Assembly (NCBI RefSeq): GCF_003664035.1
Contig: NZ_RCCK01000011.1
Coordinates: 682,001 to 746,000, forward strand
DNA length: 64,000 bases
From: Pedobacter alluvionis
GTDB lineage: Bacteria; Bacteroidota; Bacteroidia; Sphingobacteriales; Sphingobacteriaceae
Direction of reading: 5' to 3'
In this document: positions 2 to 48,400 of the stretch, piece after piece
How the letters are laid out: every line of letters starts with the position of its first letter
Position numbering within the stretch: the first letter of the stretch is position 1
Notes under the pieces: model-generated
What the model was told of the DNA's origin: nothing
The model's database searches: none
The model's input: the letters and a program-made list of their open reading frames with translations, nothing else
Made by a program: the position numbers and the translations under genes

Positions 2-682
2 AAAATAGATGCTTTAGAAATTGATAACGTCTATTTATATATTGAAAATTTTGATAATGAACGTTTCGAAAAAGTCCGTCAACAACTAGGCATCTATAAC
101 CTCGTTTTTTCGGTTAATTTTTTCGGTTGCAACAACACAATTGATAAGAATAAATTATATAACAATATTTATTTTAATTTTTTTGAACAACAATTTTCTG
201 ATTATAAACAGCATTTTACTATTGATAATCTTGTAGTTAATTCAGATCATTTTTTAGAATCGTATAATTATCATTCTTATTATTTTGGCAAAGTATGTAT
301 TGATGAAAATGGGAATATTAAGAATGGCTTAAATAACATAGAAAATTTTGGCAACTTAAACACGATTAGCAAAGCTGATTTTTTTAATATAATTTCTTCA
401 GATACGTTTAGCGAATTAGGAAAAATAAACAAAAACAACACCCTTGTTTGTAGCGATTGTGAATTTAGATATATGTGTATAGATAGCCGTGTCCCTGCTA
501 AAGGAGCAGAGAAATGGTACCATCAGGTAGAATGTTCTTACAATCCGTACCTATCTAAATGGAAGCATGAGGATGGATACATTAATTTAAGAGAATCTGG
601 AGTTGCTGTTACAGAATCTGGAATAGCAATTGAAAAAAAGAAATTAGCTGAAAAATTTAAAAAGGTTTGGTCCATAATATGA
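2..682 (+). CDS. gwsS: Grasp-with-spasm SPASM-domain peptide maturase (GwsS-like), 5' end outside window
   Basis: The reading frame is open from the left edge, so only the C-terminal 226 residues are present. They carry a SPASM-type Cys set: a lone Cys in KVCIDENG, then CSDCEFRYMC, then a Cys in VECSYNPY. The ending, with RVPAKGAEKWYHQVECSYNP and WKHEDGY, is what I recall for the SPASM maturase of grasp-with-spasm RiPP systems. There it works with an ATP-grasp ligase on a double-glycine precursor peptide. The ligase and precursor would lie upstream, outside the window. The stop codon overlaps the start of the exporter gene by 4 bp (ATGA), which indicates translational coupling. The family assignment rests on recalled similarity. 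Confidence 0.8.
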   Translation, partial: KIDALEIDNVYLYIENFDNERFEKVRQQLGIYNLVFSVNFFGCNNTIDKNKLYNNIYFNFFEQQFSDYKQHFTIDNLVVNSDHFLESYNYHSYYFGKVCIDENGNIKNGLNNIENFGNLNTISKADFFNIISSDTFSELGKINKNNTLVCSDCEFRYMCIDSRVPAKGAEKWYHQVECSYNPYLSKWKHEDGYINLRESGVAVTESGIAIEKKKLAEKFKKVWSII

Positions 683-2871: not shown

Positions 2872-4165
2872 GAAAGATATATTAGACAATATAGAACTAC
2901 GTTCTGAAAGTGTACAGGATGTACTCTCACAACCACCTCACTGGATGTTGCGTTGGGGAAGTGTTGTTATTTTAGGTATTATAATAATGGTTTTATTAAT
3001 GAGCTATTTTATAAAATATCCGGAATTTATACCTGCCCCTATTATGGTAACCTCACAAAACCCGCCTGAAAAACTGCAGGCAAGAAGCGATTCGAAAATT
3101 GAAAAAATTTTCATCAAAGATCACCAAAAAGTAAAAAAAGGCGAGGTGTTAATGGTACTGCAATCTACCGCAAACTATGACGATCTTTTAGCACTCAAAA
3201 AAATAATAGATGAGTTATCTCCTTCACAATTACTTTCATTTCCGGTTAACCAAATCTCAACATTTAAATTAGGAGAATTACAAAGTGATTATAATGCGTT
3301 TGCCAAGGCATTTCAGGACGAAAAATTATTTGCAAGGCTTAAGCCTTATGCCCCGGAAAATCTAGCCAACAACCAAAATATAGCGATATATAACAGCAGA
3401 ATTATCACACTGAAAAGGCAGAAATCGTTTGAACTTGCTAAATTCGACCTTATTAAAAAAAATTTCCAGCGTACCCAACAACTTTTTAGTCAGAAAGTGA
3501 TCTCTGCTTCGGAGTTCGAAAATGAAAAAATTAAACTTTTGCAGGCACAGCAAAGTTTGGAAAATATAGATATATCATTATCGCAAACAAACGAAGCTAT
3601 TTCTAACCTCAATAAAACAAAAGACGGTACAACAATAAATGCCGAAAAAGACAAAATAAATTTTGCTTCTCAAACCTTGCAGCTGTTTGAGCAATTGAGA
3701 AAATCTTTAAAACAATGGGAACAAAATTATTTAATTGTTTCTTCTACAGACGGTACCGCAAGTTTTCAACAATTTTGGGGAGAAAACCAGTTTATTAAAA
3801 GAGGTGATGCTATTTTATCTATCTTACCGGGTAATAAGAAAGCGCTGGTAGGCAGAATGTCGGTACCAGCAACCAATTCTGGTAAAATTGTTATAGGCGA
3901 AAGAGTTCTAATAAAGTTAGATAACTATCGTTACCAGGAATATGGCATTGTAGAAGGAAGGGTGCATAATGTCTCTTTTGCTCCTGATGAAAAAGGGAAT
4001 TACTATGTTGATGTAAGTCTTCCAAAAGGCCTAAAAACTTCTTATAACAAAAACCTTAATTTTGATAAAGAGTTAAAAGGTAATGCAGAAATTGTTACTG
4101 ATGACCTAAGGCTTATCGAGAGAATTTTTAACCAGTTTAAGGCACTTCTTAAAAACCATAGTTAA
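2861..4165 (+). CDS. HlyD-family secretion adaptor
   Basis: A 434-residue membrane fusion protein. It has a short cytoplasmic N terminus, one transmembrane helix (about residues 31-53, GSVVILGIIIMVLLMSY), a biotinyl-lipoyl-like segment (EKIFIKDHQKVKKGEVL), a long coiled coil (about 180-260), and a C-terminal beta-barrel region. It should link the PCAT to an outer membrane channel. The start is TTG at 2861, inside the end of the exporter gene. No ATG gives a full N terminus, so coupling is likely. No TolC gene follows directly, so a TolC encoded elsewhere, possibly the one at 18831, may serve. Confidence 0.9.
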   Translation: METKKDILDNIELRSESVQDVLSQPPHWMLRWGSVVILGIIIMVLLMSYFIKYPEFIPAPIMVTSQNPPEKLQARSDSKIEKIFIKDHQKVKKGEVLMVLQSTANYDDLLALKKIIDELSPSQLLSFPVNQISTFKLGELQSDYNAFAKAFQDEKLFARLKPYAPENLANNQNIAIYNSRIITLKRQKSFELAKFDLIKKNFQRTQQLFSQKVISASEFENEKIKLLQAQQSLENIDISLSQTNEAISNLNKTKDGTTINAEKDKINFASQTLQLFEQLRKSLKQWEQNYLIVSSTDGTASFQQFWGENQFIKRGDAILSILPGNKKALVGRMSVPATNSGKIVIGERVLIKLDNYRYQEYGIVEGRVHNVSFAPDEKGNYYVDVSLPKGLKTSYNKNLNFDKELKGNAEIVTDDLRLIERIFNQFKALLKNHS

Positions 4166-26880: not shown

Positions 26881-27378
26881 TTACCTTTTGGCTACTGTAT
26901 TAGTTTTTTGATCTACATTGAAATAATCTTTATGATCTTCTATCATTTTAGCAATAGTAGCTGCTTTGGTATCCGTTATTTTAAACTCAAACAATGGCTC
27001 TTGATTTTTCTTTGATCTCACCATTTTCTCTGTATAAAAGCGATAAACCAAGCCATTCGTTAGTAAGCCATATTTTGCTTTTGTTTTACGGAAGTATTTG
27101 GATAGGCGTGAATCGTGAATATCTAAATTATCGTTGTGGTGTTTACATTCAACGAGAATTGCAGGTTCTCCATCTTTCATAATGGTATAATCAACTTTTT
27201 TACTTTTTTTAACCCCGAAGTCTAGAACAGCTTCAGATTGAACCTCAGAGGGGTCAAATCCCAAGATTTGGATAAAAGGCATAACTAACGCATTCCTTGT
27301 TAAATCCTCAGATTGAACTTGTGGAAGCATTTTCTTAATTCTTACGGCAAACTGCCCGATTTCGTCTTTCAATTCCAT
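26881..27378 (-). CDS. Stand-alone HsdR-N-type PD-(D/E)XK nuclease-like protein
   Basis: A 165-residue protein resembling the N-terminal nuclease domain of type I restriction subunits (HSDR_N). The core is VDYTIMKDGEPAILVECKHHN, holding Asp and the E-x-K pair (residues about 77-92). LTRNALVMPFIQILGFDP lies before it and YGLLTNGLVYRFY after. There is no helicase or methylase, so it is not a restriction system by itself. Similar short proteins are usually called type I restriction endonuclease N-terminal domain proteins. It lies 21 bp after an unknown gene on the same strand. A defence role is only a possibility. Confidence 0.8.
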   Translation of the reverse strand: MELKDEIGQFAVRIKKMLPQVQSEDLTRNALVMPFIQILGFDPSEVQSEAVLDFGVKKSKKVDYTIMKDGEPAILVECKHHNDNLDIHDSRLSKYFRKTKAKYGLLTNGLVYRFYTEKMVRSKKNQEPLFEFKITDTKAATIAKMIEDHKDYFNVDQKTNTVAKR

Positions 27379-27399
27379 ATTGTTATCTATTTTAGGTAG

Positions 27400-27774
27400 T
27401 TAATTTTTTAAATTATATTGGTTAAATACCGAATTTGCAGTGATAATAATTTGGTCTAAACTTTGTTTGTCAAAAAAGTTTCTGTTCAACATATCAACCA
27501 TATAGGTTAATTTGTTGATGTCTTTTGCCTGCATCGTAAACTGAAAACTTTTCATGCCGTCTTTTATAGCTTGTTGAACGTAATTACGAACAACCAAAAA
27601 AGATTTCCTGAACGCATATTCACGATCTAACTGGCCTTTAACAGGCTCCCTTCCATCAAGATTAAGATATTCATTTTGCATTCTCTGATACATATCTGAA
27701 TTGATTCCTTGATTTTTTAGAATCCCCTTGTAGTAGATTTTATTCAGTAAATACTCGTATTCGTTGTTTTTCAT
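27400..27774 (-). CDS. Uncharacterised 124-residue protein
   Basis: I do not recognise a family. It is charged, largely helical by composition, has no Cys, no signal peptide and no membrane segment, and is rich in Asn, Tyr and Lys. It starts the transcript that continues into the HsdR-N-like gene (21-bp gap), so they may act together. The frame is intact and the ATG is well placed. Confidence 0.65.
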   Translation of the reverse strand: MKNNEYEYLLNKIYYKGILKNQGINSDMYQRMQNEYLNLDGREPVKGQLDREYAFRKSFLVVRNYVQQAIKDGMKSFQFTMQAKDINKLTYMVDMLNRNFFDKQSLDQIIITANSVFNQYNLKN

Positions 27775-28139
27775 GTGGATGCTTGGTAGATGTAGGGAAT
27801 ATGTCTTTGCTTTTTGGTATTTCTTTTTTTTAATCTAACCCAGTATTGTATGGCCTGTTTTTAATTTTATTATCCACAGGCTACACAAGATTGGGCAGGC
27901 AGATGTTTTCACAATTAGTAGTTCTCACCGCTAATTATTTTGTTTTTGGCAAACAGTTTAAAGATTATAAAAAGAATGGATGCAGATAATTTTTTTACAT
28001 CAACCCTGTAGAATATTACACGAAACCCTGGTTTTTTTTAGACAAAACCGGATATGAGTTTTTTTTGGGTGCAATTGTTAATTCAATTCATTTTTATTTA
28101 ACTTGCATTCAAATCAAATAAACCCACATTTTTATACCC
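27775..28139. other. Divergent control region upstream of the LytTR regulator
   Basis: It separates the unknown minus-strand gene from the LytTR gene. It has no supported ORF. Its clear content is the set of three 22-bp-spaced half-sites at 28000-28049. Confidence 0.6.
28000..28050 (+). promoter_or_regulatory. Three direct half-sites at 22-bp period (putative LytTR operator)
   Basis: TCAACC (28000-28005), GAAACC (28022-28027) and AAAACC (28044-28049) recur every 22 bp. Two are embedded in longer matches (TTACATCAACCCTG and TTACACGAAACCCTG). Two-turn direct repeats are the usual arrangement for LytTR dimers. The last site ends about 90 bp before the regulator ATG. The motif itself is not a known consensus. 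Confidence 0.5.
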
Positions 28140-28886
28140 ATGAATCTAAAATGCGTTGTTATAGACGACGAGCAACATGCAATTGAAGTATTAACTGACC
28201 ATATTGCTGAAATGCCTGGTTTAACAGTTTTTAAAACTTTTACCAGTCCTGTCCAGGCACTTACTGAGATAAGTATTGAGGACGAAATTGATTTATTATT
28301 TATGGATATTGATATGCCGGGAATCAATGGATTGGAACTGGCCAAAAATATCAGAGAAAAAGCAAAATATTTAATTTTTACAACTGCCCATCCCGATTAT
28401 GCCTTGCAAGCATTTGATGTACAATCAGATCAGTACTTATTAAAACCTATTTCTTTTGCAAAATTTGCATTAGGTATTGATAGGATTTTAAAAAAGGAAT
28501 CAACTAATAGTAGTAAAACTACCACGAAAGAAACTGATCAGGTTGCAGCCCTTTACATCAAGGGCGACCACAAATATGCTTTTTCCAATATCGCTGTTGA
28601 CGAAATACTTTATATCAAAGCATTACAGAATTATATACAGATCATTACTAAGTCTGAAATCCACACGACCTATCTTACACTTAAAGAAATTGAAAAGGCC
28701 TTAGAAAGCCATCCTTTTATCCGTGTTAATAAATCTAACATTGTGGCTAAATCGGCAATCAAAAAAGTAGATGGAAATATAATCCGTTTGGTAAATAATG
28801 AGATGATACAAATTGGCGAAGGTTATAAAGAAGCTTTCTTCGCCTATGTTCAGAGCAGTTTGTTAAAATCGAACAGAAACCAGTAG
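28140..28886 (+). CDS. LytTR-family response regulator
   Basis: A 248-residue transcription factor. The receiver domain (1-120) has acidic residues in VVIDDEQ, the phospho-Asp in LLFMDIDMPG and Lys in LLKPIS. A short linker leads to a C-terminal LytTR DNA-binding domain (about 145-245) with DEILYIKALQNYIQII and FIRVNKSNIVAKSAI. It should be phosphorylated by the LytS-type kinase encoded 300 bp downstream on the same strand. The 22-bp-spaced sites upstream suggest self-regulation. The gap between regulator and kinase is unusual and holds a peptide gene in the opposite direction. Confidence 0.95.
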   Translation: MNLKCVVIDDEQHAIEVLTDHIAEMPGLTVFKTFTSPVQALTEISIEDEIDLLFMDIDMPGINGLELAKNIREKAKYLIFTTAHPDYALQAFDVQSDQYLLKPISFAKFALGIDRILKKESTNSSKTTTKETDQVAALYIKGDHKYAFSNIAVDEILYIKALQNYIQIITKSEIHTTYLTLKEIEKALESHPFIRVNKSNIVAKSAIKKVDGNIIRLVNNEMIQIGEGYKEAFFAYVQSSLLKSNRNQ

Positions 28887-28896
28887 GATAGTAATA

Positions 28897-29043
28897 TTAA
28901 AGTCCGAATATCCAAGTACCATTAGTTACTATAGTTTGACTTTGATCACCAGTTGGGTGGGTTGTAAAATTATTTTGATCTTTAGTGTTTTTATAAACAA
29001 AAATAGTTTTTTTAGTAAGTTTAGTCGTGTGTTGAGCTTTCAT
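28897..29043 (-). CDS. Candidate Thr-rich, Cys-free RiPP precursor or signal peptide
   Basis: A 48-codon ORF from ATG (29043) to TAA (28897), located between and antisense to the regulator and kinase genes. The N-terminal part is basic and leader-like (KLTKKTIFVYKN, residues 8-19) and resembles the K-L-x-K-x-T-I pattern I recall from Bacteroidota lanthipeptide leaders. The C-terminal part (about 26-48) is rich in Thr, Ser, Gly and Asn (FTTHPTGDQSQTIVTNGT), with 11 Thr and 1 Ser in the whole peptide, no Cys, and the end WIFGL. A Cys-free core could be dehydrated by LanB but could not form lanthionine rings by itself. It shares a divergent control region with the kinase gene. No Shine-Dalgarno is visible. 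This is a prediction from composition and context. Confidence 0.5.
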   Translation of the reverse strand: MKAQHTTKLTKKTIFVYKNTKDQNNFTTHPTGDQSQTIVTNGTWIFGL

Positions 29044-29127
29044 GATATAATATTTATGTGTGATTATTTATTGTTCTTATTAATTTCTGTAAAGGTGCAA
29101 CTCAAATCACAACGCAACTAGTTTTTT

Positions 29128-29160
29128 ACACAAAACCCCATTTTTAGGAGGCCAAAACCC
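29128..29160. promoter_or_regulatory. Two half-sites at 22-bp period in the kinase/peptide intergenic region
   Basis: TTACACAAAACCCC (AAAACC at 29132-29137) and CCAAAACCC (AAAACC at 29154-29159) are 22 bp apart. They match the sites before the LytTR gene, including the TTACAC prefix and a TTTTTAG block between the half-sites. The last site is 27 bp before the kinase ATG, and the first is 88 bp before the peptide ATG on the other strand. Confidence 0.5.
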
Positions 29161-29186
29161 TAATTCAGTAGATAAAAAGCAATAAA

Positions 29187-30302
29187 ATGATCTTTTTCAA
29201 CCTCAAAAAATTCCTTCAATATTATAAACTTCATCTCTTTATTTGGGGTATTTATATCATTTATGAGGTATTTATACTTGGTTTAGTATCGAAGTCTTTC
29301 AGGCCAACGGGTGCTTACATCATAATCTATGTCAGCAATATCACAGTATTTTACGCTCATGCTTTTTTTCTTAACAAACTTTTAAGTAATAAAAATTTAA
29401 AGTTAAAACCGATAAAGATTTCGTTACTTATCATCCTGACTATCTGTGGCTATACTTTATTTAACTACTATTCCGGATTAGCATTTATCAAATTAGGTTT
29501 TATCAGGATAAGCGGGCCAATTTCATTTACCCGCGAATTTATTCTTACCTGTACTTATCGTTCTTTATACTATATCGGCTTCGCAACAGGTTATGTTTAT
29601 CTTATTAAATCATTTCGGGATCAGAAGAAAGTAGAAGCACTGGAACGGCAGAACCTGGTTACCCAAATAGAAAAACAGGCTTTAGAGAACGATCTGGTTC
29701 AATCGCAAAACAATTATCTGCGTAGTCAAATCAATCCTCACTTTTTATTTAACACGTTAAACTTTATCTATAACGATGCCCGCAAAAAGGCACCCATGGC
29801 AGCAGATGCCATTATGAATCTGTCCGAAATGATGCGTTATGCCTTAAAACGCCCTGAAGCATCAGAGATGGTTCCACTGAGTGAAGAAATTGAACAGATT
29901 GAACACCTGATCAATCTCCATAAGCTGCGAACGGCTAATACCATCAATCTGGAACTTGAAATAACGGGCGATATGTTTGGTTTAAGATTTCCACCGCTTA
30001 TCTTATTAACTTTGGTCGAAAATATATTTAAGCACGGAAATATTTCACACTCTACCCAACAGGCGATCATTAAAATCACTTACGAAAGAGACAAGCTGAA
30101 TATCAGCACCATAAACATGATTAATGACAATAAAGGCAAACAGACAGAAAGCCATCATGTAGGGATTGACAATATTGGCAAGCGCCTGAGCAGTTTTTAT
30201 GGTAATGATTATATATTCAGGTATTATAAAGATCCACTTAACCGCTTCATCACAGAAATAGATGTAACTGTGGTTAATCCGTTAGCCAGGTTAAACCGCT
30301 AA
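29187..30302 (+). CDS. LytS-type sensor histidine kinase
   Basis: A 371-residue membrane kinase of the His_kinase (PF06580) class. About four transmembrane helices lie in residues 14-145. A coiled linker follows, then the phospho-acceptor box QINPHFLFNTLNFIYND (His185) and a GHKL-type ATPase end (PPLILLTLVENIFKHG, GIDNIGKRLSSFYG). There is no periplasmic sensor domain, so it senses at or in the membrane. Its partner is the LytTR regulator. It ends convergently with the LanB gene, the stop codons overlapping by 4 bp. Confidence 0.93.
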   Translation: MIFFNLKKFLQYYKLHLFIWGIYIIYEVFILGLVSKSFRPTGAYIIIYVSNITVFYAHAFFLNKLLSNKNLKLKPIKISLLIILTICGYTLFNYYSGLAFIKLGFIRISGPISFTREFILTCTYRSLYYIGFATGYVYLIKSFRDQKKVEALERQNLVTQIEKQALENDLVQSQNNYLRSQINPHFLFNTLNFIYNDARKKAPMAADAIMNLSEMMRYALKRPEASEMVPLSEEIEQIEHLINLHKLRTANTINLELEITGDMFGLRFPPLILLTLVENIFKHGNISHSTQQAIIKITYERDKLNISTINMINDNKGKQTESHHVGIDNIGKRLSSFYGNDYIFRYYKDPLNRFITEIDVTVVNPLARLNR

Positions 30303-33097
30303 ATTTTCGTCGCATTCAGGCGCTGAATATCTTTTAGTAAAAAATAGTATATAACCATTTCATGCGTTCGCTGATCTTTGTTAAAGAGCCTATTTACGTG
30401 CATGTGTATTAAATCGGTTAATAACTTTAACACATTTTCAGGCGCACCTTGTGTAAGAATCCTGATAAAAGAATCTGAAAACAGGCTAAAGCCCTGCTCC
30501 TGTTCTACTGTTAACGCTGTCCATTCTGTTTTTCGAAACTCCTGATAATGAATATTTAATTGTTTAAAATCGGTTGCATCTAACCGATGCTCTTCATTAA
30601 AGTTATCAGACATAAACCTCACAACCTTATTGATGGCGGCCTTATCTATAAGGTTAGCTCCGATAATTTTTGCGACCAAAAGGCTGCACAATTTATATTT
30701 GTTGAAATCATCGGTCTGGTTTTCTAAAAGCGATACTACAAATGCACTATCTACAGCGAAGTGCCGTTCAACATCTTCAATCATATTACTGCCGTAACGT
30801 TCCAGCTCACGCTTGTAGGTTTTAATCTGTACATCAGATACCAAACCTGAGTTTAAAAGCGATTCGAGATCATCCATGAGCCTTGATATTAACAGCTGCC
30901 CATCTATTGGATTGTTTAATTGAATTCTAAACCGGATGTGGTTTCCGTTTTCATTGTAACGGATAAAAAACCACGATTTTACCTGATCTGAAGAAGTGGT
31001 CAGGAACGGTGCTATGATTTCGGTCAAAATCTGATCACTACGTTGCTGATGGCAATAAATTTCGAAATAAAGCCATTCTTTACCTGGCAGGAAAAATCGG
31101 GTTACCCCGGCATTTACTGATGTTTCTACCAAACCACGATAAATTTGCTCATCATGACTTATACTCAAAACAAACTGTGCCAGATAGGGCTTAGCCGCTT
31201 CATCAACTACGATGCTATTTTGAGGGATGAGTATTTCTTCAATATAAGTACTGCCTTGTTTTTGTACATATTGTAGAAAAGCATTGATATCATCGTCGTT
31301 TTGCAGGGCAAAGCATAAAGTTTGATCGGACATACCGGCTTTAAAATATTCGCTAACGCCTAAATTGTTTAGGTATGATCTACATTCTGCAATGGGTAGC
31401 AACTTTTGATCGGGCCCTAACAGGACTTCTTTTTTAATTTTCCATTTATTACTACTTAAAACTATATTCTGATATTGTAACCTTGGGTAATAATCCAAAT
31501 CAGGGTAAATGGTATCGAGCGGAAAGGAAAGATTTGTTTGCAAGCCTTGATGTTGCAAATCGCACAATAACCTGAATACAGAAAGATCTGAACGGATGTA
31601 GTTGTAGGCAGAAGCCATTCTTGGCACCAGCCGTTTATTTAACTGCTTATAGCGAAGGATAATCTCTGTACCCCGAACTGAGATTTGTATGTCATTTAAA
31701 GCTAGTGGCGCCGTTGAGGTATCAAAATTTAAGATCGACAATTGATGCCCGTAGATTAACTTCCGGCGGTTTACATTATCTACATTGGCTTCTACCATAT
31801 AGGCCACATCAAAAAACAACACTTCGGGATTTGCCTGCTGTTCTGCGGATGCAATATCTTTAGCATACTGCTCCACCTCCCCGGCTGCCATGGTAAACCT
31901 TCCACTTAGTGCATTTGAGGTTACTCCACCTATCTGTTCTATAAAAATCAAATCATCATGAACAGACATTACCATACTGAATGAATTGGGTAAAGCTGCT
32001 AGTTTTTGATTCGGTGTTAAGACAAGTTTGTTCAGATAAACTGTTTTGCCTTTCTCAAATTTTTGTTCCGTCAGGTAGGATTTTAGTGCCGTTCTAATAT
32101 TTTCCGCCTCTGCTTTTTTGGGCGGCTTATTGTTAAAACGCGTGATAAACCCACTATTTTGGCCCGATTGCTCCAACTCATCGTATCCTACACCCATTTC
32201 AGGATCCAGCGCCAATAAAAGCGGTACTTCCCGATCTTCGAATTTTTTCTTAAACCGAACCTGGAACTGGCTAAGGGCATCACGATCTTTAGCAGGCATT
32301 ATATTATGAAGCATACTGATCAAACCTGGAATGGCCTGAAGCGAACGTTCATTAATACCGCCAGATAAAGCTATGCGTTGCGCGATAAGGTATTTTGGTA
32401 ACTCAGCCGCGTTAGCAAGCCCTAATCGCTCAAAATAATCATCTCCGATAATATTGGGATCGTAGTTGGTAAAAACAAGCTGTAAATCGTGCATATCCTG
32501 CAGCAAACCAAACAGTCCCTCTACTTCAATATCACTTAAATTTAATTGTTTTACCAGATCATCAAACCTGAGTGGCTTTAGGCAAGCCGTTAATATTTGT
32601 ATTACAAAATCGTCCTGATCCAGCTCGGCCAGTTCGAACACGCCATCGGCACAGGCTATATAGCGGATACTATTGGGTGTTGAATAATAACTACTATTAC
32701 TAAATATGAGGCAGTTTTTTTGCAACAAATCTGCCAAAGGCAATTGAATATTATTTTTGTGAGGCCAATCAATCAGTTCCCGTACCTTTAGCGCTTCTTC
32801 AACTACTATTCTGCTTTCGGATGGTTTAATGGCATTATTTAATAAACTAAAACTGGCAAAAGTGCCATAAGGGGTCGCTCTGAATTTCGCACGGTTAAAA
32901 TATTTCCATATGGTAAAATAAACCTTAGGTGGAAGATCTTTGAGTTCGTTTGCCTTTACTTCTTTTATGGTTTCGTAAAAAGCTGCGGAAGATATTGAAA
33001 TGGCCAGTTTTAATTCCTCCCAACAATCTGCCAGTTCGGATTGATATGAAAATTTAGGCGTTCTAAAAATTACGGTTGGTTGGATATTCAGCTTCAT
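30299..33097 (-). CDS. lanB: Class I lantibiotic-type dehydratase (LanB), full length
   Basis: A 932-residue protein. The N-terminal glutamylation part (about 1-640) starts like other Bacteroidota LanB proteins (TVIFRTPKFSYQSE, FRATPYGTFASFSLL). The C-terminal elimination domain of SpaB_C type (about 665-925) contains LYFEIYCHQQRSDQIL, SWFFIRYNENGNHIRFRI and YKRELERYGSNMIEDVERHF. LanB uses glutamyl-tRNA to glutamylate Ser/Thr and then eliminates to form dehydroamino acids. No LanC cyclase, peptide transporter or protease is next to it. The only nearby precursor candidate is the peptide at 28897. It is probably transcribed alone, since 268 bp separate it from the upstream operon. Confidence 0.92.
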   Translation of the reverse strand: MKLNIQPTVIFRTPKFSYQSELADCWEELKLAISISSAAFYETIKEVKANELKDLPPKVYFTIWKYFNRAKFRATPYGTFASFSLLNNAIKPSESRIVVEEALKVRELIDWPHKNNIQLPLADLLQKNCLIFSNSSYYSTPNSIRYIACADGVFELAELDQDDFVIQILTACLKPLRFDDLVKQLNLSDIEVEGLFGLLQDMHDLQLVFTNYDPNIIGDDYFERLGLANAAELPKYLIAQRIALSGGINERSLQAIPGLISMLHNIMPAKDRDALSQFQVRFKKKFEDREVPLLLALDPEMGVGYDELEQSGQNSGFITRFNNKPPKKAEAENIRTALKSYLTEQKFEKGKTVYLNKLVLTPNQKLAALPNSFSMVMSVHDDLIFIEQIGGVTSNALSGRFTMAAGEVEQYAKDIASAEQQANPEVLFFDVAYMVEANVDNVNRRKLIYGHQLSILNFDTSTAPLALNDIQISVRGTEIILRYKQLNKRLVPRMASAYNYIRSDLSVFRLLCDLQHQGLQTNLSFPLDTIYPDLDYYPRLQYQNIVLSSNKWKIKKEVLLGPDQKLLPIAECRSYLNNLGVSEYFKAGMSDQTLCFALQNDDDINAFLQYVQKQGSTYIEEILIPQNSIVVDEAAKPYLAQFVLSISHDEQIYRGLVETSVNAGVTRFFLPGKEWLYFEIYCHQQRSDQILTEIIAPFLTTSSDQVKSWFFIRYNENGNHIRFRIQLNNPIDGQLLISRLMDDLESLLNSGLVSDVQIKTYKRELERYGSNMIEDVERHFAVDSAFVVSLLENQTDDFNKYKLCSLLVAKIIGANLIDKAAINKVVRFMSDNFNEEHRLDATDFKQLNIHYQEFRKTEWTALTVEQEQGFSLFSDSFIRILTQGAPENVLKLLTDLIHMHVNRLFNKDQRTHEMVIYYFLLKDIQRLNATKI

Positions 33098-36475: not shown

Positions 36476-39400
36476 TTATCTAATCAGCGTTACTGTACCT
36501 TTTCTCATTGATGTTGTTCCATTAGTGAATGTAATATCAACCATGTACACATACACACCGATTGGCTGATTTACACCTTTAAAGGTTCCATCCCATCCAT
36601 TTGCTACATTGTCTGATTGGAATATCAACTGACCCCATTGCGTATAAATATTCATTTTCGCGCTTGATATGGTATTACCGTAGATTAAGAATATATCGTT
36701 TTTACCGTCGTTATTTGGTGTAAATGCATTTGGTATATAAACCTGATCTTCAAAAGGATTAGCTGCTTTACCAGTTGCTGAACCGTTCTGACTGGTTTCA
36801 CACTCGGTCTGACCTTTTGCCCTTACCAGGATACTTACATTTTGATCTGGTTTCAAGCCTGATACCAGGTAAGTTGTTCCAGTTGCTCCACCTGTAGGAT
36901 TAATCCAGGTTAAACCATTATCTAATGAAACCTGATATGCTGTAGCACCTGCAACCGCAGCCCATGCAAACGTTACACTGTTTGATGTAGTACTTTGTAC
37001 CACCACTACTGGCTTATCTAATACCGGCAGTACAGTTACTGTAACTGCTGTTCTTGCTGGACTTGCACAGCCACCTACTGCTACTGCCTCTACATAATAA
37101 ATGGTAGTAGCACTTAAGTTTGGTGGGGTAAAAGTTATACCTTCTGCCAATACCGCTCCACCTGAGCTTGCAGCGTACCATCTGTAAACTAATCCAGTTA
37201 CCGGGTTATTTACAGTTAATATAGTTGAGCTACCTGAACAAAGTGTTCCATTTGCTGCTGTTACTGATGCTGGCGCAACTGGTACTGGTAAGGCAATTAC
37301 ATTTACCGGTGTTCTTGATGATGAGATACAGGCGCCATTTGCTCCTTCAACATAGTAAGTGATGTTTGCATTAACCGCAGGTGTTGTAAAGTTTACACCT
37401 GTTCCTGCCAATGTTCCACCTACCGCTGCTGTATACCAGTTATACATTACACCTGTTTGAGGGCTTGTAACTGTTAATGTAGCTGAGCTTCCTATACATA
37501 CATTAACTGATGCAGATGCTACTGTTGGTATAGTTGGTTTTATGTTAACTGCTACTGTTACTTTAACACGGCCTCCGTTGTTGTTACACCCACCTGTTCC
37601 GTTTGCTGAAATATAGTAATCTGTTGTTGCAGCTAAAGCTGTTACATTGAATGTAGTACCAGTAAATAATAAATTACCTCCAACTGCTTCATCGTACCAT
37701 TCGTAAGTAACACCTGCCTCTGCATTGGCTATTGTTAGTGTGGCTCCATCTCCTGAGCATATGCCTCCGTTTGGAGCAGATACTACCGGGCTGTTTGGTA
37801 ACGCATTTACAGTAATGGCTACCGCTCTTGCTGTAGCTGCAGTATTTTCACATTTATTATCGCCTTTAACCGTTACATAATATGTTGTGCTTGCAGCTAA
37901 TACCGGGGTAGTAAATACCGGGCCGGTAAACACTACTGTGTTTAGTGCAGCATCGCTATACCATGTAAATATTGGATTGGTTACTGTTGTGCTTGTAGCA
38001 GCCAATGTTGCTGCTGAACTGGCACATATCGATGTTGATCCGTTTACAGCTATATCTGTTGCCGCAGCGATTGGGTTAACAGTAATGGTTACTGTTTTAG
38101 CATTAGCTGCAGTATTCTCACATTTATTATCGCCTTTAACCGTTACATAATACGTTGTTGTAGTAGTTAATACCGGCATTGTAAATATGGGACCGGTAAA
38201 GGCAACACTTGTTAATGAAGCATCGTTGTACCAAGTAAATACAGGATTGGTAACTGTTGCTGAACTGGCATTGATCACAGCTGTTCCAGAACCACATACA
38301 CTCGCTGGTGTAGATAAGGTAATATCTGCTGTTGTTGCGACTGCATTAACATTTACGGTAACCACTTTTGCATTTGCAGCAGAACTTTCGCATCTGTTAT
38401 CACCTTTCACTGTGAGGTAATATTTAGTGGTTGCGGTTAACGCTGGTGTATTAAAGGATGCGCCCGTAAATACTGGTGTAGTTAAAGCAGCATCGCTGTA
38501 CCAGGTAAATACCGGGTTAGTTACTGTTGTGGTGCCCGCCACCAAACTTGCTGATGAGCCTGCGCAGATCGTTGCATCTGCTGCAGTAACATCAGTTGCA
38601 GAAGCTACAGGGTTAACTACAATATTAACAGACTTAGCTGTGGCTGTACTGTTTTCGCATTTATTATCACCTTTAACCGTAACATAATAGGTGGTATTGG
38701 CTGTTAATGCTGGTGTATTAAATACTGCTCCTATATAAGCCACATCAGTTAAAGTTGCGTTGGTGTACCAGGTAAATACCGGGTTGGTAACTGTTGTGCT
38801 ACTTGCCGTTAGTACTGCTGCAGATCCTCCGCATATATTGCTTGATCCACTTACCATAACATCACTTGCAACTGCTATTGGGTTAACTTTTATGGTCACT
38901 GCTGCTGCATTTGCTGCAACGTTTTCACATCTGTTAGTTCCTTTTACGGTTACATAATAAGTGGTTGTAGTGGTTAATGCCGGGGTAGTAAATATTGGTC
39001 CGGTAAAGGCAACGCTTGTTAATGAAGCATCATTATACCAGGTAAATATTGGATTGGTTACTGTTGTTGAGCTTGCATTAATTACTGCAGTACCCGATCC
39101 ACACACTAAAGCTGGTGTAGATAAAGTAATGTCTGCGGCAGTTGCACTCTGATTCACATTTACAGTTACCACTTTTGCAGTAATACCTGAGTTTTCACAT
39201 TTGTTATCACCTTTAACTGTAACATAGTATTTAGTTGTTGCCGTTAATACCGGGGTAACGAATGATGTACCCACATAAGCTACTGAAGTTAGACCCGCAT
39301 CACTGTACCAGGTAAAGACTGGGTTTGTTACTGTTGTAGTACTGGCTACCAAAGTAGTAGCCGATCCTGAACAGATGGCTGCATCATCAGCTGTAATATC

Positions 39401-42400
39401 GGAAGCAGTTGCAACAGGATTAACCGTAATAGTAATTACCCTTGCGTTACCAGGTGCATTTTCACATTTATTATCACCTTTTACAGTTACATAATAAGTG
39501 GTTGTGCTGGTTAATGCCGGCGTACTATAAGTTGCACCAATGAAACTTACATTGGTTAAGGCGGCATCACTATACCAGGTAAATACCGGGTTGGTTACTG
39601 TTGGCGATGTTGCATTTAATACCGCAGATGATCCTGCACAAACTGATGTGCTTCCGCTAAGGATAATATCAGTAGTCGTGGCCAATGGATTAACCGTTAC
39701 AGTTACCGCTTTAGCATCTGCAGCACTGTTTTCGCATTTGTTGGTACCTTTAACCGTTACATAATACGTAGTTGTGGCTGTTAATCCGGTTGCGGTAAAC
39801 GTTGGGCCAGTAAATACCGCGCTGGTTAACGAAGCATCGCTGTACCAGGTAAACACTGGTTGCGTTACCGTGGTGCTCGAAGCCATTAACATTACGGCAG
39901 AACCCGAACAGATTTGGGCATTGCTTACTGCAATGTCTGCAGCGGTAGCAAAATCCTTAACGGTTACGGTAACTATCTTAGCGTTAGCTGGTGAATTTTC
40001 ACATTTATTATCACCCTTAACAGTTACATAATAAGTAGTGTTTGCATTAAGTGCAGGTGTAGTAAAGCTAGCGCCAACATAGGCTACTGTAGTTAAAGCA
40101 GCATTACTATACCAGGTAAATACGGGGTTAATTACTGTTGTTGTTGAAGCAGACAGTGTTGCTGTAGATCCTTTACAGATTGAGGTAATTCCGTTAATGG
40201 CAATATCTGCATCAGTTGCTGCCGGATTAACCGTAATGGTTATCGGTTTAGCGGTTGCTGCAGTATTCTCACATTTATTATCGCCTTTAACCGTTACATA
40301 ATAAGTGGTTGTGGCATTAAGCGTTGGCGTAACAAAGCTAGCCCCGGTAAATGCTACAGTAGTTAAAGCTGCATCACTGTACCAGGTAAACACCGGGTTG
40401 GTTACCGTTGTACTTGTTGCATTTAAAGTAACTGAAGCGCCACCGCATATGGTACTCGTTCCCGATAAGTTTATATCAGCCAGAGTGGCAACAGGGCTTA
40501 CTGTTATCGTAACCTCTTTTGCATTACCAGCTGTGTTTGCACATTTATTTGTTCCACTAACAGTAACATAATATTTGGTAGTTACACTAATGGCTGGTGT
40601 ATTAAATACTGCACCTACAAAAGCTACCTGGGTTAAAGCAGCATCGCTGTACCAGGTAAACACCGGACTGGTTACTGTTGTACTGGCCGCAGTAAGTACT
40701 GCTATTCCAGAAGCACACAATGATGTAGTTCCGGTTACTGTTAAATCGGCAGCAACCGCAGATGGATTAACGGTTATAGAAATTTTAGCACGTGTAGCGT
40801 TTGAACAGCCCGCTCCGCTTACGGCTTCAATATAATAATCGTATGTTCCTGCTGCGAGGGATGTAGATGTAGTAAAGCTACTGTTGTTGGTTACCAACAT
40901 ATTTCCGGCTACAGCCGCATCGTACCAGTTATAAGTTACTCCTGTAACGGCTTGCACACTTAAGGTAGCAGGTGAGCCGATACAAGTTGTGGCGGGGTTA
41001 TTAGTTGATGGAATGGGCGCTACTGGCGGAGTTAAAATAGTTACTGTTACTTTGGTTCCCGGAGTCTCACAACCATTAGCAGTTGCCGTTACTGAATAAG
41101 TATAAGTTCCGGCAGTTAAGGCAGGATCTGTTGTGAAAGTTGCCCCATCTTTTCCTGTCTGATAAGTTGAGCCTAAGTACCATTTGTACACTACGCCTGC
41201 TTGTGGGTTCTGCACACTTAATGTTGCGGATGAACCTTGACAAGCACTTGCCGTAACAGCATTAACTGTTGGCGTGGTGATTACACGTTGTGCATAATCT
41301 AAATTAACAGATGTTAATGCCCCTAACAAACCAGAACTTAATCTCAGTTCTGCTCCATCAAATTTACTGGTTGGAACGAAAGTTAATATTGCAGATGTAC
41401 CGCCAGATAATAATTTTAAGCTAATTAATGGGTTAGCAATAGAAACCGCATCGTTATTGCTGGTTGTACCCTGGAAAGTAGTTACGGTTAAGTTATTTAA
41501 TACTCCTGCCGAAAGCAATGTTCCTGGAGTGGTAATCTTCACTCTTAAGGTATCGCCTACATTTGACAATCCTGTAAAGCCAACCTGGTGATAAACAGAT
41601 GCACCAAGTAATCCCACTGGGATAACCAAACTGGATCCGGTATTAATATCATTATCAACCGCAAAAGTAGGGTTGAAAACACCGGCTAGTACAGCTGCCC
41701 CAGTTACGCCACTTGCAACTGTTGCTATAGCTGCTCCACAAGGCGTAGTTACCGGTGTACCATTAGGAATAACAGTAACCGTTACGGTTGCCCTGCTTGT
41801 TGCAGTACAGCCTCCAGGTATGGTAGCCTCTACATAATAAGTTGTTGTTGCACTTAATTGTGGTGTTACATACGTTTCACCAGTATGTACCGGAACTGTA
41901 CCGTTTGCAGTAGTGTACCAGTTAATGGTTGCACCTGCTGTACCAGAAGTTGCCTTTAATACCGCAACAGCACCTTCACTGATGGTGATAGATGGCGGTG
42001 TAATTACCGGAACATCAATAGTTCCTAAAATAACTTTACCTTCTGTTCTTGCTGATGAAGAACCACAGCCATTAACTGCTGCAACAAAATAACTGGTATT
42101 TGCAGTAATTAAAGGTGTTGTAAAGTTATCGCCAGTGAATACTAAGTTTCCACCTACCGCAGCATCGTACCAGTTATAGGTTGTACCTGCAATTGGATCT
42201 TTAACCTGGAAGGTAGCTGATGTATTCGGACAGGTATTAACCGATGCCGAAAGCAGATCAGGTGTTACCGGTGCAGGGTTTGTAGTAACGTTTACTACTG
42301 TTTTGTAGCTTACACAACCTGTTGCAGAAACTGCAGCAACATAGAATTTAGTATCGCCTGTTAAAACTGGGGTAGTAAAGATAACACCGTCTTTACCGCT

Positions 42401-45400
42401 TAGGTAAGTACCAGTAGCATCGTACCACCTGTAGGTTAAACCTGCTGATGGATTACTTACCTGCAATTGAGCGGTTGAGCCTAAACAAGCAGTAACGTTA
42501 GCAGCTGTTACGGTTGGCGCAAGCAAAATGCGTTGTGCGTAATTTAAATTGATCGAAGTTAATGCACCCAATACACCTGAGTTTAATCTTACTTCTACTC
42601 CATCAAAAACATTAGTTGGAACAAAAGTGATTAAGGCCTGTGTATTACCGCTCAACAACTGAACATTTAATAAGTTATTGTTTAACAGTCTCGAATCACC
42701 ATTGCTATTTGTTCCAACATAAGTAGTAATTGAAGCGTTCCCTAATAACGACAGCGACAATAATTTTCCTGGCGATGATACCAATACACGCACGGTATCA
42801 CCAACAGTAGATAGTGACCCAAAACCAACCCTCTGATAAACTGATGCTCCAAGCGCTCCAACAGGCATAACCAATGAAGATGCGGTTTGGGTATCGTTAT
42901 CAATCGCTAAAGTTGGGTTAAATACACCTGATAATAAGGCTACGCCTGTAACACCACCAACTTGTGTTGTTGCGGCTTCGCATGGTACTGGGTTTGGCGA
43001 TCCATTACCATCAACGGTAATGGTCACCTGAACACGGCTTGCCGAAGTACAACCATTGGTAGAAACCGATTCTACATAATAAGTTGTAGTAGCAAACAAT
43101 GGCGGTGTAACATAAGTAGCACCTACATAAACAGGTATAGTTGAAGTATTAGAATTATACCAATTGAAAGTATTGGTTGGATCTGCAGAACTAGCCATTA
43201 AAATTGCAGTTTGTCCTGCACCCACTGTTGATGAATTGGCAGTTACTACAGGTAACACCGGACGGGGATTAACTGATACCGCAGCTGCTGCACGTGCAGC
43301 ACTTGTACAGTTTCCTTGTGATGCTTCTACATGATAAGTAGTGGCGGCTGTTAAGGCCGGAGTTTGGAATACTGCGCCTGTGAAAACCAGGTTTCCACCT
43401 ACCGCAGCATCGTACCATTTATAGGTTACTGCAGCATCTGGATTGGCAACTGATAACGTTGCTGATGATCCCTCACAAACATTGGCAATTGTTGCCAATA
43501 CTGGTGTGGGTAATGCTGGTGTAACGGTTACAGTTACCGGAACTCTTGTTGTGTTTGGACAACCTGCTTTACTTACCTGAATATAATAAGTTGTAGTAGC
43601 AGTTAATGCTGATGTAGTAAATGTTTCGCCAGTGGCTAATTGTGTGCCACCAGTTGCGGCATTGTACCAGGCTAATGTCGTACCACCATTTGCTGTTGCA
43701 GTTAAAGTTGCCGTACTTCCTGCACAAATGGTTTGTGCACCCGCTGTTACCGTTGGATTAGGATAAATTACAGTAGCACCATAAATATCTAAACTGGTTA
43801 ATGCCGATACTAATGCACCAAAGCTTACCTGTACCCTATCGTAAACACCTCCGGCTAAAATGGTAGCCGCGAAACGAGAACCTGAAAGTAATTGAAGATT
43901 TAATAATGATGAATTTAATTGAACTGATCTAACCACTGTTGATCCGTTCAATACGTTTACAGTAACATTACCCAGTGCCGTTAAATCTAATAAACCACCT
44001 GGTAAAGCTAAATCTAAACGGATGCTATCAGTTGCAGTTCCAGCGTTAGGGAAAATTAATTGCTGGTAACCTGATGAACCAACACCTACTGACAACGATA
44101 TTCGGGTAAAGTTAGATGGATCTGCATCAGTAGAGTTTCCGGCTCCGGTTATTCCGCACAATAAACAAATTCCGTTTATACCTGTGTTTTGCGAATTAGC
44201 AGTATTACATGCGGTGCCACCACCGTTGTTTAATACAGTAACAGTTACTGGTACGCGGCTTGCACTTTTACAACCGCTGGCATTTGTAGTCTCTACATAA
44301 TAAGTAGTAGTTGCCGATAATATTGGGGTAGTAAATGAAGTACCAGCACCTACCTGTGTTCCACCTGTAGCAGCATCGTACCATTGAATGGTATTTCCAG
44401 CATCTGCTGTTGCCAATAAGGTAGTAGATTGACCTGCATTAATTACCTGGTTGTTCGTAGTTACGGTTGCGGCAGTTGCTGGTGGGTTAACAGAAACGTT
44501 AACCGCGGTTCTTGAACTTACTGCAGTTCCTGATACTGCCTCAACATAAAATACGGTTGGAGCGGTTACTGCAGGAGTTACAAAAACACCTGTGTTATTA
44601 GTAAACAATGGTGTACTTCCGGTAGAAGCATACCAGTTATAGGTTACACCAGCTTGCAAATTGCTTACACTTAGTGTAGCCGGACTTCCAGCACAAACAG
44701 TTGCTGCAGCAACCACTGGTGCATCAACCGTTACAGTTAAGCTATAAGTTGTTGTTGCTTTGTTTCCGTTTGCGTCTGTTGCAGTTAAAGAAATTGAAAA
44801 GGTTCCACCTAAAGTTGGTGTTCCTGTAATTTCTCTTGTTGCGGTATTGAAACTTAATCCTGGAGGAAGGTTTGAAGCTAAATAAGTATATGGTGCTGTT
44901 CCACCGGTTACCGCTGGCAAAGTTTGCGTTGGGTAAGGTGTGCCTACAATACCGTTAGGTAAAGTAGCACCTGGTAATGTTAATAAACCTATTACTTTAA
45001 GTGCATAAGTATTACTTGCTGTTCTGCCCTCACTATCTGTAACGGTAAGACTGATAGAATAATTTCCGGCCTGTGTAGGCGTTCCAGAAACTGCTCTAGT
45101 TGCGGGATTAAAAGTTAACCCTGCCGGAAGATTGCTTGCTACATAAGTATATGGGCCAACGCCACCGGTTGCCGATGGCAAGGTTTGCGTGGCATAAACT
45201 GTTCCTTCTGTTCCATCAGGCAAAGTTGCTGCCGGTAACAATAAAGGATCAACTACTACAATTGTATAGTTATTGGTTGTTGTTTTTCCATCAGCATCAG
45301 TAACCGTTACCGGTACGGTGAAAGTTCCGGATTGGGTAGGTGTTCCGGTAATTTCTCGTGTTGCCGGATTAAAAGCTAATCCCGGAGGAAGACCCGTTGC

Positions 45401-48400
45401 AGCATAAGTATAAGGTGTTGAACCACCTGTTGCAGATGGAATAGTTTGGATAGGATAAACTGTGCCAGTTGTTCCATTGGCTAAAGTAGCCGCAGGTAAA
45501 ACCAACGGATCGGTTACTTTAAGCGTATAGTTAGCTGTAATCGTATTGCCATTAGCATCGGTTACTGTTACCGGAATAGTAAATGTTCCGATTTGATTAG
45601 GCGTGCCCGTAATTTCTCTGGTAACCGGGTTAAAAGTCAAACCCGGAGGAAGCGCAGTAGCCGTATATGAATACGGACCAGTTCCACCTGTTGCAGCTGG
45701 AATTCCGTTTGTTGTATATGGTGCGCCTGTTACACCGTTAGGCAATGCTCCGGGAGCTAAAGCTAAGGCTGGCGTTACAGTTAAAGTGAATGTTGCAGTT
45801 GTACTACAAGCTTTTGTATCAGTTACTACAACATCAAATGTTGGATTACCTGTGGCAGTTGGCGTTCCACTTATCAGGCCACTTGGCGATAAAGTTAAAC
45901 CAGCTGGTAAGGTACTACCTGCAGCTAAGGCATAAGTATAACCTGGTGTTCCGCCAGAAGCAACAGGAAGCTGCTTACTGTATGGAGAGGCAATTGTTGC
46001 ATTTGTTAAAGTTGTACCTGCAAATACAATTGCCGGATTAACGGTAATAACTACCGGAACCCTTGTTGTATTTGAACAGGTCCCTTTAGTTACCTGAACA
46101 TAATACGTAGTTGTTGTTGTTAATGCCGGAGTAGTAAAGTTTGCGCCTGTTCCCACTTGTGTTCCACCTGTTGGCGCATCGAACCAGGTTAAGGTTGTAC
46201 CACCATTTGCAGTTGCACTTAATGTTGCAGTGCTGCCTGAACAGATCGATTGTGCACCAGCTATAAATGTTGGGTTTGGATAAACTACCGTTGCGCCATA
46301 AATATCTAAGCTTGTTAAAGCGGAAACCAGTGCACCAAAGCTTACCTGAACCCTATCATAAGCGCCACCCGCTAAAACAGTTGCTGCAAAACGATTGCCT
46401 GATAATAGTTGAAGACTTAATAATGCGCCGTCTAATTGAACTGTTTTTACAACTGTAGTACCATTTAATACCGTAATGGTTACATTATTTAAAAGACCAA
46501 CATCGGCTAAACCAGTTGGTAAAGCTAAGTCTAAACGGATGCTATCTGTAGCAACACCTGTAGAAGGAAAAATTAATTGTTGATAACCTGTTGCTGTAAC
46601 GCCTACAGCAAGAGAAATCCTGGTGAAGTTGTTTGCATTGGCATCAGTAGAGTTACCTGCGCCATTTATAGCGCATAATAAACAGATCCCATTAATACCA
46701 GTATTCTGATTGTTTGCTGCATTGCAAGCTGTTGCGCCGCCGCCGTTAATTACAGTTACAGTTACCGGAACGCGGCTTGCACTTTTACAGCCATTGTTGC
46801 TTGTGGTTTCTATATAATAAGTTTTGGTTGCAGATAAGGCTGGCGTAGTGAACGAAGTTCCTGTTCCAACCTGTGTTCCCGCTGATGGAGCATCAAACCA
46901 GGCAATGGTATTTCCAGCATCGGCAATAGCGGTTAAAGTTGTAGTTTGTCCGGAGTTGATTACCTGGTTATTAGTCGTAACTGTGGCTAAAGTTGCAGGT
47001 GGATTAACTGAAACTGTAACCGATGTTCTCGAACTGATTGCTGTTCCGGAAACAGCTTCTACATAAAATACAGTTGCTGAACTTACTGCAGGCGTCACAA
47101 AAGTACCGTTATTGCCAGTTACTAATGGTGTACTTCCTGTTGAGGCATACCAGTTATAAGTTACACCAGCCTGTAGGTTACTCACTGTTAAAGTAGCAGT
47201 GCTTCCGGTACATACCGTAGCTGAAGCCACAAGCGGCGCATTTACTGTTACGGTTATGGCATAAGTCGTTGTTGCTTTATTATTGTTAGCATCTGTAGCA
47301 GTTAAAGCAACATTATAAGTACCACCTTGCGTCGGTGTTCCGGTAATTTCTCTTGTTGTGGGGTTGAAAGATAATCCCGGAGGAAGGTTTGTTGCTGCAT
47401 AAGTATACGGAGACGCTCCACCTGTTACAGCCGGTAATGTTTGCGGTAAGTAAGAAGTACCAACAATACCGTTAGGTAAAGTTTTTGTTGGTAAAGTTAA
47501 GGTACCATTTACTTTAATTGGATAAGTGTTACTGGCTGTTTTACCCTGGCTATCGGTAACTGTAACACCAATTACATAATTACCTGCCTGGGTTGGTGTA
47601 CCAGTAATCTCTCTTGTAGCCGGATTAAACGATAATCCGGCAGGGAGATTAGCACCTACATACGTATAAGGACCAACACCACCTGTTGCAGCCGGGAGAA
47701 CTTGTGTAGCATAAGTAGTGCCCTCTGTTCCATCTGGCAAAGTTGCCGCTGGTAATACCAATGGGTTATTTATAATAACACTATAATTTGTAGTTACCGT
47801 TTTTCCATCAGCATCTGTAACCGTAACGGGTACGGTATACGTTCCTGGTGTTGTTGGTGTACCGGTAATGGCCCTGGTTGATGGATTAAAAGTTAAACCT
47901 GGAGGAACACCTGTTGCCGAATAAGTATAAGGCGTAGTTCCTCCGGTTGCACCTGGAATAATCTGTGTAGTATATACTGTTCCTGTAGTGCCATCAGCTA
48001 ATGTTGCTGCAGGTAACAATAAAGGATCAGTAATTTTTATGGTATAGCTGGAAGTAATGGTATTACCGTTTGCATCAACAACCGTAACTGGTATCGTATA
48101 TATTCCAGGTTGGCTTGGTGTTCCGGTAATTTCTCTTGTTGTTGGATTAAAAGTTAAGCCAGGAGGAATACCTGTTGCGGTATAAGTGTACGGTCCTGTT
48201 CCACCAGTTGCGGCTGGTATAGTCTGTGTTGGATAAACAGTTCCTGTTAAACCATCAGGTAATGCGCCCGGTGTAAGTACCAATGCTGCGGTAACCGTTA
48301 AATTATAATTCGCGGTTGCTTTACAACCTTTGGCATCAGTTGCAACTACAGAAAAAGTGTAAGCATTGGCTACGGTTGATGTTCCGGTAATTACGCCAGC

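Follow-up and report, generated by a model that had tools for sequence, protein, structure and literature searches.

A conserved LanB-containing cassette in Pedobacter probably encodes a modified peptide pheromone and its matched receptor kinase

We analyzed a 64,000-nucleotide stretch of the Pedobacter alluvionis genome (assembly GCF_003664035.1, contig NZ_RCCK01000011.1, positions 682,001 to 746,000; hereafter the window), which contains a compact four-gene cassette. A LytTR response regulator (RR) gene (28140-28886, + strand, 248 amino acids; Pfam Response_reg and LytTR) is followed by a gene for a precursor peptide (28897-29043, − strand, 48 amino acids, no Cys) with a basic, leader-like N-terminal half and a Thr/Ser-rich C-terminal core. 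Next come a sensor histidine kinase gene (29187-30302, + strand, 371 amino acids; His_kinase PF06580) and, convergent with it and overlapping it by 4 bp, a gene for a full-length LanB dehydratase (30299-33097, − strand, 932 amino acids), whose glutamylation and elimination domains were recognized from Pfam and from a match to NisB. The Pfam matches for the RR, kinase and LanB all exceeded the curated cut-offs, and PADLOC returned no defense match for these three proteins; the peptide belongs to no family in Pfam or NCBIfam. The four open reading frames (ORFs) lie where an initial reading of the DNA letters (the sequence-only reading) had placed them, including the intact LanB and the convergent overlap. 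The same reading had pointed out that LanB has no LanC nearby, and indeed none adjoins the cassette: in this genome of 6.04 Mb and 18 contigs, LanC domains are confined to C3 and C9, away from the window.

To determine how far the gene set is conserved, we surveyed 145 genomes of the genus, 115 of which had a LanB match (E<=1e-20). We collected 56 loci, the window locus included, in which LanB is full length and at least about 50% identical, and used all of them in the partial Mantel, pairwise, patch and tree analyses below. One genome (G090; 56% identity) was excluded, having a LanB fragment and its peptides on another contig, and one kinase ORF without the first part of the protein (L093, 285 amino acids) was retained with gaps. 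RR, peptide, kinase and LanB genes occurred in identical order in 56 out of 56 loci, flanked by HtpG and, at the opposite end, mostly by PorE/SprF-like genes; the same genes in the same order throughout mean that the set is not a chance assembly. The RR was 87-98% identical across cassettes. Among more distant LanBs (33-46% identity), some of them from outside the genus, the gene set was kept in most of the loci fetched. In a second collection of named organisms, which includes Mucilaginibacter, Olivibacter and Taibaiella loci and overlaps the first in species, so that the two are not independent, kinase and RR genes stood beside LanB in 76 out of 79 loci and a peptide gene (E<=0.01) did so as well in 70 out of 79. 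The LanB neighborhood is thus kept together with the regulator pair and a precursor family. Neither a true precursor lying with LanC elsewhere nor a neighborhood that fails to keep the regulators, the two outcomes that would have spoken against the sequence-only reading, was found.

The peptide ORF is real, judging from its 143 homologues at the 56 loci (150 were listed; six lay outside these loci and one had an undetermined residue). The closest relatives of the window peptide, in other species, were 70-83% identical to it. The peptides are frequently encoded in tandem arrays, with one copy at 24 loci, two at 12, three at six, four at one, five at seven, six at four and seven at two. Cys was absent from 138 of the 143 peptides. 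Ser and Thr made up 33% of the core vs 15% of the leader, and the leader was strongly basic (K+R 23%, D+E 1%). Thr was present at alignment column 40 in all 143 peptides and at column 65 in 139, the core being otherwise variable, which makes these two positions candidate dehydration sites. The peptide profile matched 88 of the 145 genus genomes, 87 of which also had a LanB match; put the other way, it was found in 87 out of 115 genomes with a LanB match vs one out of 30 without, the latter an 80%-complete assembly. Within the P. alluvionis genome there were four good peptide-profile matches (E 5e-7 or better), all Cys-free: the window peptide itself (E=5.9e-19 with profile A2, which includes it) and three others, in RR-peptide-kinase triads that have the same arrangement as the window and no linked LanB (L176:6833-8900, L177:7240-9282 and L178:6784-8889). 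This co-occurrence and these triads would fit one LanB serving several precursors.

The LanB of the cassette is intact. It matched PF04738 (Lant_dehydr_N) and PF14028 (Lant_dehydr_C), the latter over positions 1-252 of 255, and R12, R73, T75, R400, R722, R724, E764, R767, H898, N902 and R903 were invariant in 97 out of 97 LanBs. We take these positions to correspond to the glutamylation and elimination residues of NisB, from the NisB literature and an alignment with NisB (E about 4e-21). A class I lanthipeptide locus would also have a LanC cyclase and core Cys residues for thioether rings, and the window cassette has neither. A LanC domain (PF05147) was matched in 52 out of 145 genus genomes, and 28 of the 56 cassette genomes contained none, so the cassette is maintained independently of LanC. 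Given the invariant catalytic positions, dehydration of Ser/Thr would be expected, and thioether rings would not, because neither Cys nor LanC is present.

Sequence comparison across the 56 loci indicated that the peptide core and the membrane half of the kinase vary together. Mean p-distances were 0.54 for the kinase membrane half (HK-N), 0.18 for the kinase domain (HK-C), 0.09 for the RR and 0.38 for LanB; for the peptide they were 0.34 in the leader and 0.59 in the core. Core distances correlated with those of the membrane half at a partial Mantel r of 0.675 after controlling for HtpG, LanB and RR, and at 0.646 when the kinase domain was added as a control (p 0.0005 in both cases, the floor of 2000 permutations), with r 0.116 (p 0.10) for core and RR. 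Along the kinase, the correlation peaked at residues 91-130 and was gone at about 166-265. Among the 177 pairs of loci with a LanB distance <0.20, core distance correlated with HK-N at 0.68, with LanB at 0.00 and with HK-C at 0.06; pairs with similar cores (n=69) had a membrane-half distance of 0.30 and pairs with different cores (n=68) one of 0.49, LanB, RR and kinase-domain distances being almost the same in both groups. Mapping core types on the HK-N tree took 14 changes, the fewest possible; on the trees of LanB, flanking genes and HK-C it took 18-19. The direction was the same at six other thresholds; over the tree comparisons as a whole, the membrane-half tree required the minimum or one to two changes above it and the other trees four to nine more.

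Comparison with the nearest relative (L067, LanB 96% identical) located such a change. Nucleotide identity was 91-99% in 200-bp steps except at 28701-29700, where it was 0.89, 0.78, 0.74, 0.56 and 0.72 in successive steps; this low-identity patch of about 1 kb consists of the peptide gene and the kinase membrane half. Copies within an array differed little in the core (p-distance 0.072) and more in the leader (0.202); between loci it was the core that diverged more (0.585 vs 0.337). Array copies share a core, species differ in it, and core and receptor vary together, which is the signature of pheromone-receptor pairs such as the agr and com pherotypes.

An AlphaFold2 model of the kinase (pLDDT 77, pTM 0.43) predicted four helices before PF06580, at residues 14-35, 41-67, 74-103 and 116-about 140, joined by short loops, with no periplasmic domain. 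We assign them as membrane helices with moderate confidence, and their arrangement is consistent with a ligand that would be read at the membrane. A fold search of the PDB with this model matched the kinase core (GanS and the cytoplasmic part of AgrC) and returned nothing useful for the membrane half; the pTM of the model is low.

Candidate LytTR operators lie at two positions in the cassette. Upstream of the RR gene there are three direct boxes, ACATCAACC, ACACGAAACC and AGACAAAACC (27997-28049), 21-22 bp apart, and the intergenic region from which the peptide and kinase genes diverge has two, ACACAAAACC and GGCCAAAACC (29128-29159), 22 bp apart. The paired boxes conform to a conserved consensus, ACAYVAAACC, at 21-22 bp, a spacing that suits LytTR dimers. 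AAACC pairs 18-26 bp apart were present in 22 out of 56 RR-upstream regions, where the spacing was mostly 22, and in 31 out of 56 kinase-upstream regions, counts that are not independent, the loci being related; a control in which the letters of the kinase-upstream regions were shuffled gave 3 out of 11,200. A search of the P. alluvionis genome with the operator motif returned 49 matches at one mismatch or fewer vs 26 in a reversed control; five were exact, and the cassette accounts for two of these.

Taking these results together, we consider that the gene set probably makes a modified peptide, which it would detect through a receptor matched to it. The cassette is best read as an agr-like, autoregulated peptide pheromone system of the quorum-sensing type in Bacteroidota, with a precursor modified by a stand-alone LanB, and we regard this as the likely interpretation. 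Ribosomal precursors of about 48 amino acids would bind LanB through their basic leader, and LanB would glutamylate core Ser/Thr residues and eliminate the glutamate, giving a linear dehydroamino-acid peptide. The core would then be freed from the leader and exported by unclustered machinery, and the four-helix membrane half of the neighboring kinase would recognize the released core. This kinase would phosphorylate the LytTR regulator, which may bind the paired boxes before its own gene and before the peptide and kinase genes, producing positive feedback. The sequence-only reading had suggested a modified peptide that the two-component pair senses or controls, and a LanB that works without LanC; the synteny, the 28 LanC-free cassette genomes and the co-variation of core and membrane half support it.

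Several observations weigh against the pheromone interpretation. The core also correlated weakly with LanB (0.144, p 0.03) and with the kinase domain (0.153, p 0.03). Mantel tests are liberal for related species, and shared ancestry calls for caution; the core/receptor switch in a near-identical background is independent of these caveats. Exact paired AAACC boxes were absent from 25 out of 56 kinase-upstream and 34 out of 56 RR-upstream regions. No second paired operator site was recognized in the 12 loci inspected in the P. alluvionis genome. Cys was present in five of the 143 peptides, and in certain more distant variants it is usual close to the C-terminus. Neither an exporter nor a leader protease is linked to the cassette, and a peptide leaving a Gram-negative cell has the outer membrane to cross as well.

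Known systems resemble the cassette in part. Like agr and ComCDE, it combines a small precursor, a multi-helix membrane kinase and a LytTR regulator, with the peptide gene adjoining the kinase and regulator genes (56 out of 56 loci, and 70 out of 79 in the second collection), and peptide and kinase membrane half co-vary in a switchable patch; agr likewise shows group-type variation of peptide and receptor. However, AgrB (PF04647) was found in none of ten genomes searched, nine of them with the cassette (all except G118), and the kinase belongs to PF06580, with no HATPase_c_5 (HPK10) match in Pfam at E<=1. It has four predicted helices, whereas agr-type kinases have six or seven, and the maturation enzyme is LanB and the host a Gram-negative member of Bacteroidota. 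The cassette is thus not agr, because it lacks AgrB and its kinase is of a different family. Pinensin-type class I lanthipeptides of Bacteroidota, with split LanB and LanC, share the LanB family with it, and the L-x-K pattern of its leaders is close to LxLxKx5L, a leader motif given in PMC7268733. The LanB here is unsplit, however, and there is no LanC, GG leader end or Cys; without LanC and Cys, this is not a lanthipeptide locus despite its lanthipeptide enzyme. Thiopeptide dehydratases and peptide aminoacyl-tRNA ligases (PEARLs) also include LanBs without LanC, whereas this one is a single full-length protein with both domains, and no other enzyme for ribosomally synthesized and post-translationally modified peptides (RiPPs) is constant in the cassette. 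PEARLs are small LanBs that add amino acids and lack an elimination domain; the near-complete PF14028 match and the invariant elimination positions do not fit this assignment.

The nisin and subtilin systems (LanB, LanC, LanRK) also pair a LanB-modified peptide with a two-component system, whereas the cassette lacks LanC, a transporter and a protease, its peptide is Cys-free, and its regulator is of the LytTR type, that of nisin being of the OmpR type. We weighed an autoinducing bacteriocin, in which the dehydrated peptide would mainly kill competitors and the two-component pair would sense it to start production. LanB beside sensing genes and the Ser/Thr-rich cores would suit such a role, and nisin-like autoinduction is well established. 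Against it, neither an immunity gene nor a dedicated transporter nor LanC was constant across the 56 cassettes, whose common content is limited to the four genes and flanking genes that look unrelated; array copies share one core (0.072) and are not diversified, and the three further triads have no linked LanB. We consider the bacteriocin explanation unlikely. The lack of a linked exporter or protease would agree with a connector-type peptide that is never exported and modulates the kinase inside the producer cell, at the membrane or in the cytoplasm, with LanB only tuning it. The basic leader could remain membrane-associated, and co-variation with the membrane half is compatible with internal binding too. 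The species-level switch of core and receptor half in a near-identical locus is typical of intercellular signals, however, and arrays in which as many as seven copies were counted suggest that copy number sets the dose of a released product, which together make this alternative rather improbable. That LanB does something other than dehydrate the peptide, such as tRNA-dependent amino-acid addition or action on another target, leaving the triad a plain peptide-receptor pair, is very unlikely: triads without an adjacent LanB do exist, but the residues for glutamylation and for elimination do not vary, LanB stands beside the triad in every one of the 56 loci, and the peptide profile is nearly confined to genomes with LanB.

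The cassette would represent a type of cell-to-cell signaling that has been seen chiefly in Gram-positive bacteria. PMC8895600 describes peptide autoinducers that act through membrane kinases as the Gram-positive mode. A large lanthipeptide census began from LanC domains, according to PMC7268733, so the window cassette and other loci remote from LanC would fall outside its design. In the open literature searched, we recognized no described cassette of LanB, LytTR regulator, kinase and Cys-free peptide. A pheromone-receptor cassette in Bacteroidota would make cell-cell signaling in this phylum testable, explain what LanBs that lack LanC do, and offer a large set of naturally matched peptides and receptor halves on which to study specificity. 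Within the genus, allelic exchange has been published for P. cryoconitis (PMC12181424), and a relative of that species (L269) carries a distant cassette.

The sequence-only reading had also proposed that a PCAT/HlyD exporter at 679-4165 could serve the cassette. The pair of ORFs is present, although it begins at 667 (ORF starts at 667 and 2861; PCAT 667-2871, pair 667-4165). We rejected it as a partner on its phylogenetic pattern, since PCAT (scored at E<=1e-150) was matched in 44 of the 56 cassette genomes and missing from 12; nor did the leader-like half of the peptides have the GG end of PCAT-exported RiPPs. At nine variant loci (L122, L123, L124, L147, L148, L156, L158, L159 and L164), LanB lies beside an RR-kinase operon (receiver only in L124), and where a peptide was found it often had Cys near the C-terminus. 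SusD, in most cases accompanied by SusC and a redoxin, occurred within the fetched 17-19 kb in nine out of nine counted variant loci; the chance product, from genome-wide SusD counts, was 3e-7 for a set of loci picked after the pattern was seen. SusCD as an outer-membrane route for the signal is a lead only. We tentatively raise the possibility of a widespread Bacteroidota pherotype system, in which one stand-alone LanB would dehydrate a family of linear peptides free of Cys, among them those of the unlinked triads in the same genome, each would be read by its own kinase, and the C-terminal-Cys variant beside SusC, SusD and redoxin would cross the outer membrane via SusCD. If true, this would amount to agr-like signaling in Gram-negative bacteria with a dehydroamino-acid autoinducer.

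Two small genes flank the cassette at 26881-27774, the first encoding an HSDR_N-like protein of 165 amino acids, present in 56 out of 56 genus loci, and the second a 124-amino-acid protein without a family, present in part of them. A repeat-rich protein of 4486 amino acids (36476-49936), beside PorE/SprF-like genes, adjoins the cassette in many species. Elsewhere in the same genome, a split LanB (890 and 293 amino acids), LanC and PCAT form a conventional class I lanthipeptide locus (L142:3550-11294), and a LanM-like protein (DUF4135 and LANC_like) marks a probable class II lanthipeptide locus (L143:6001-9255).

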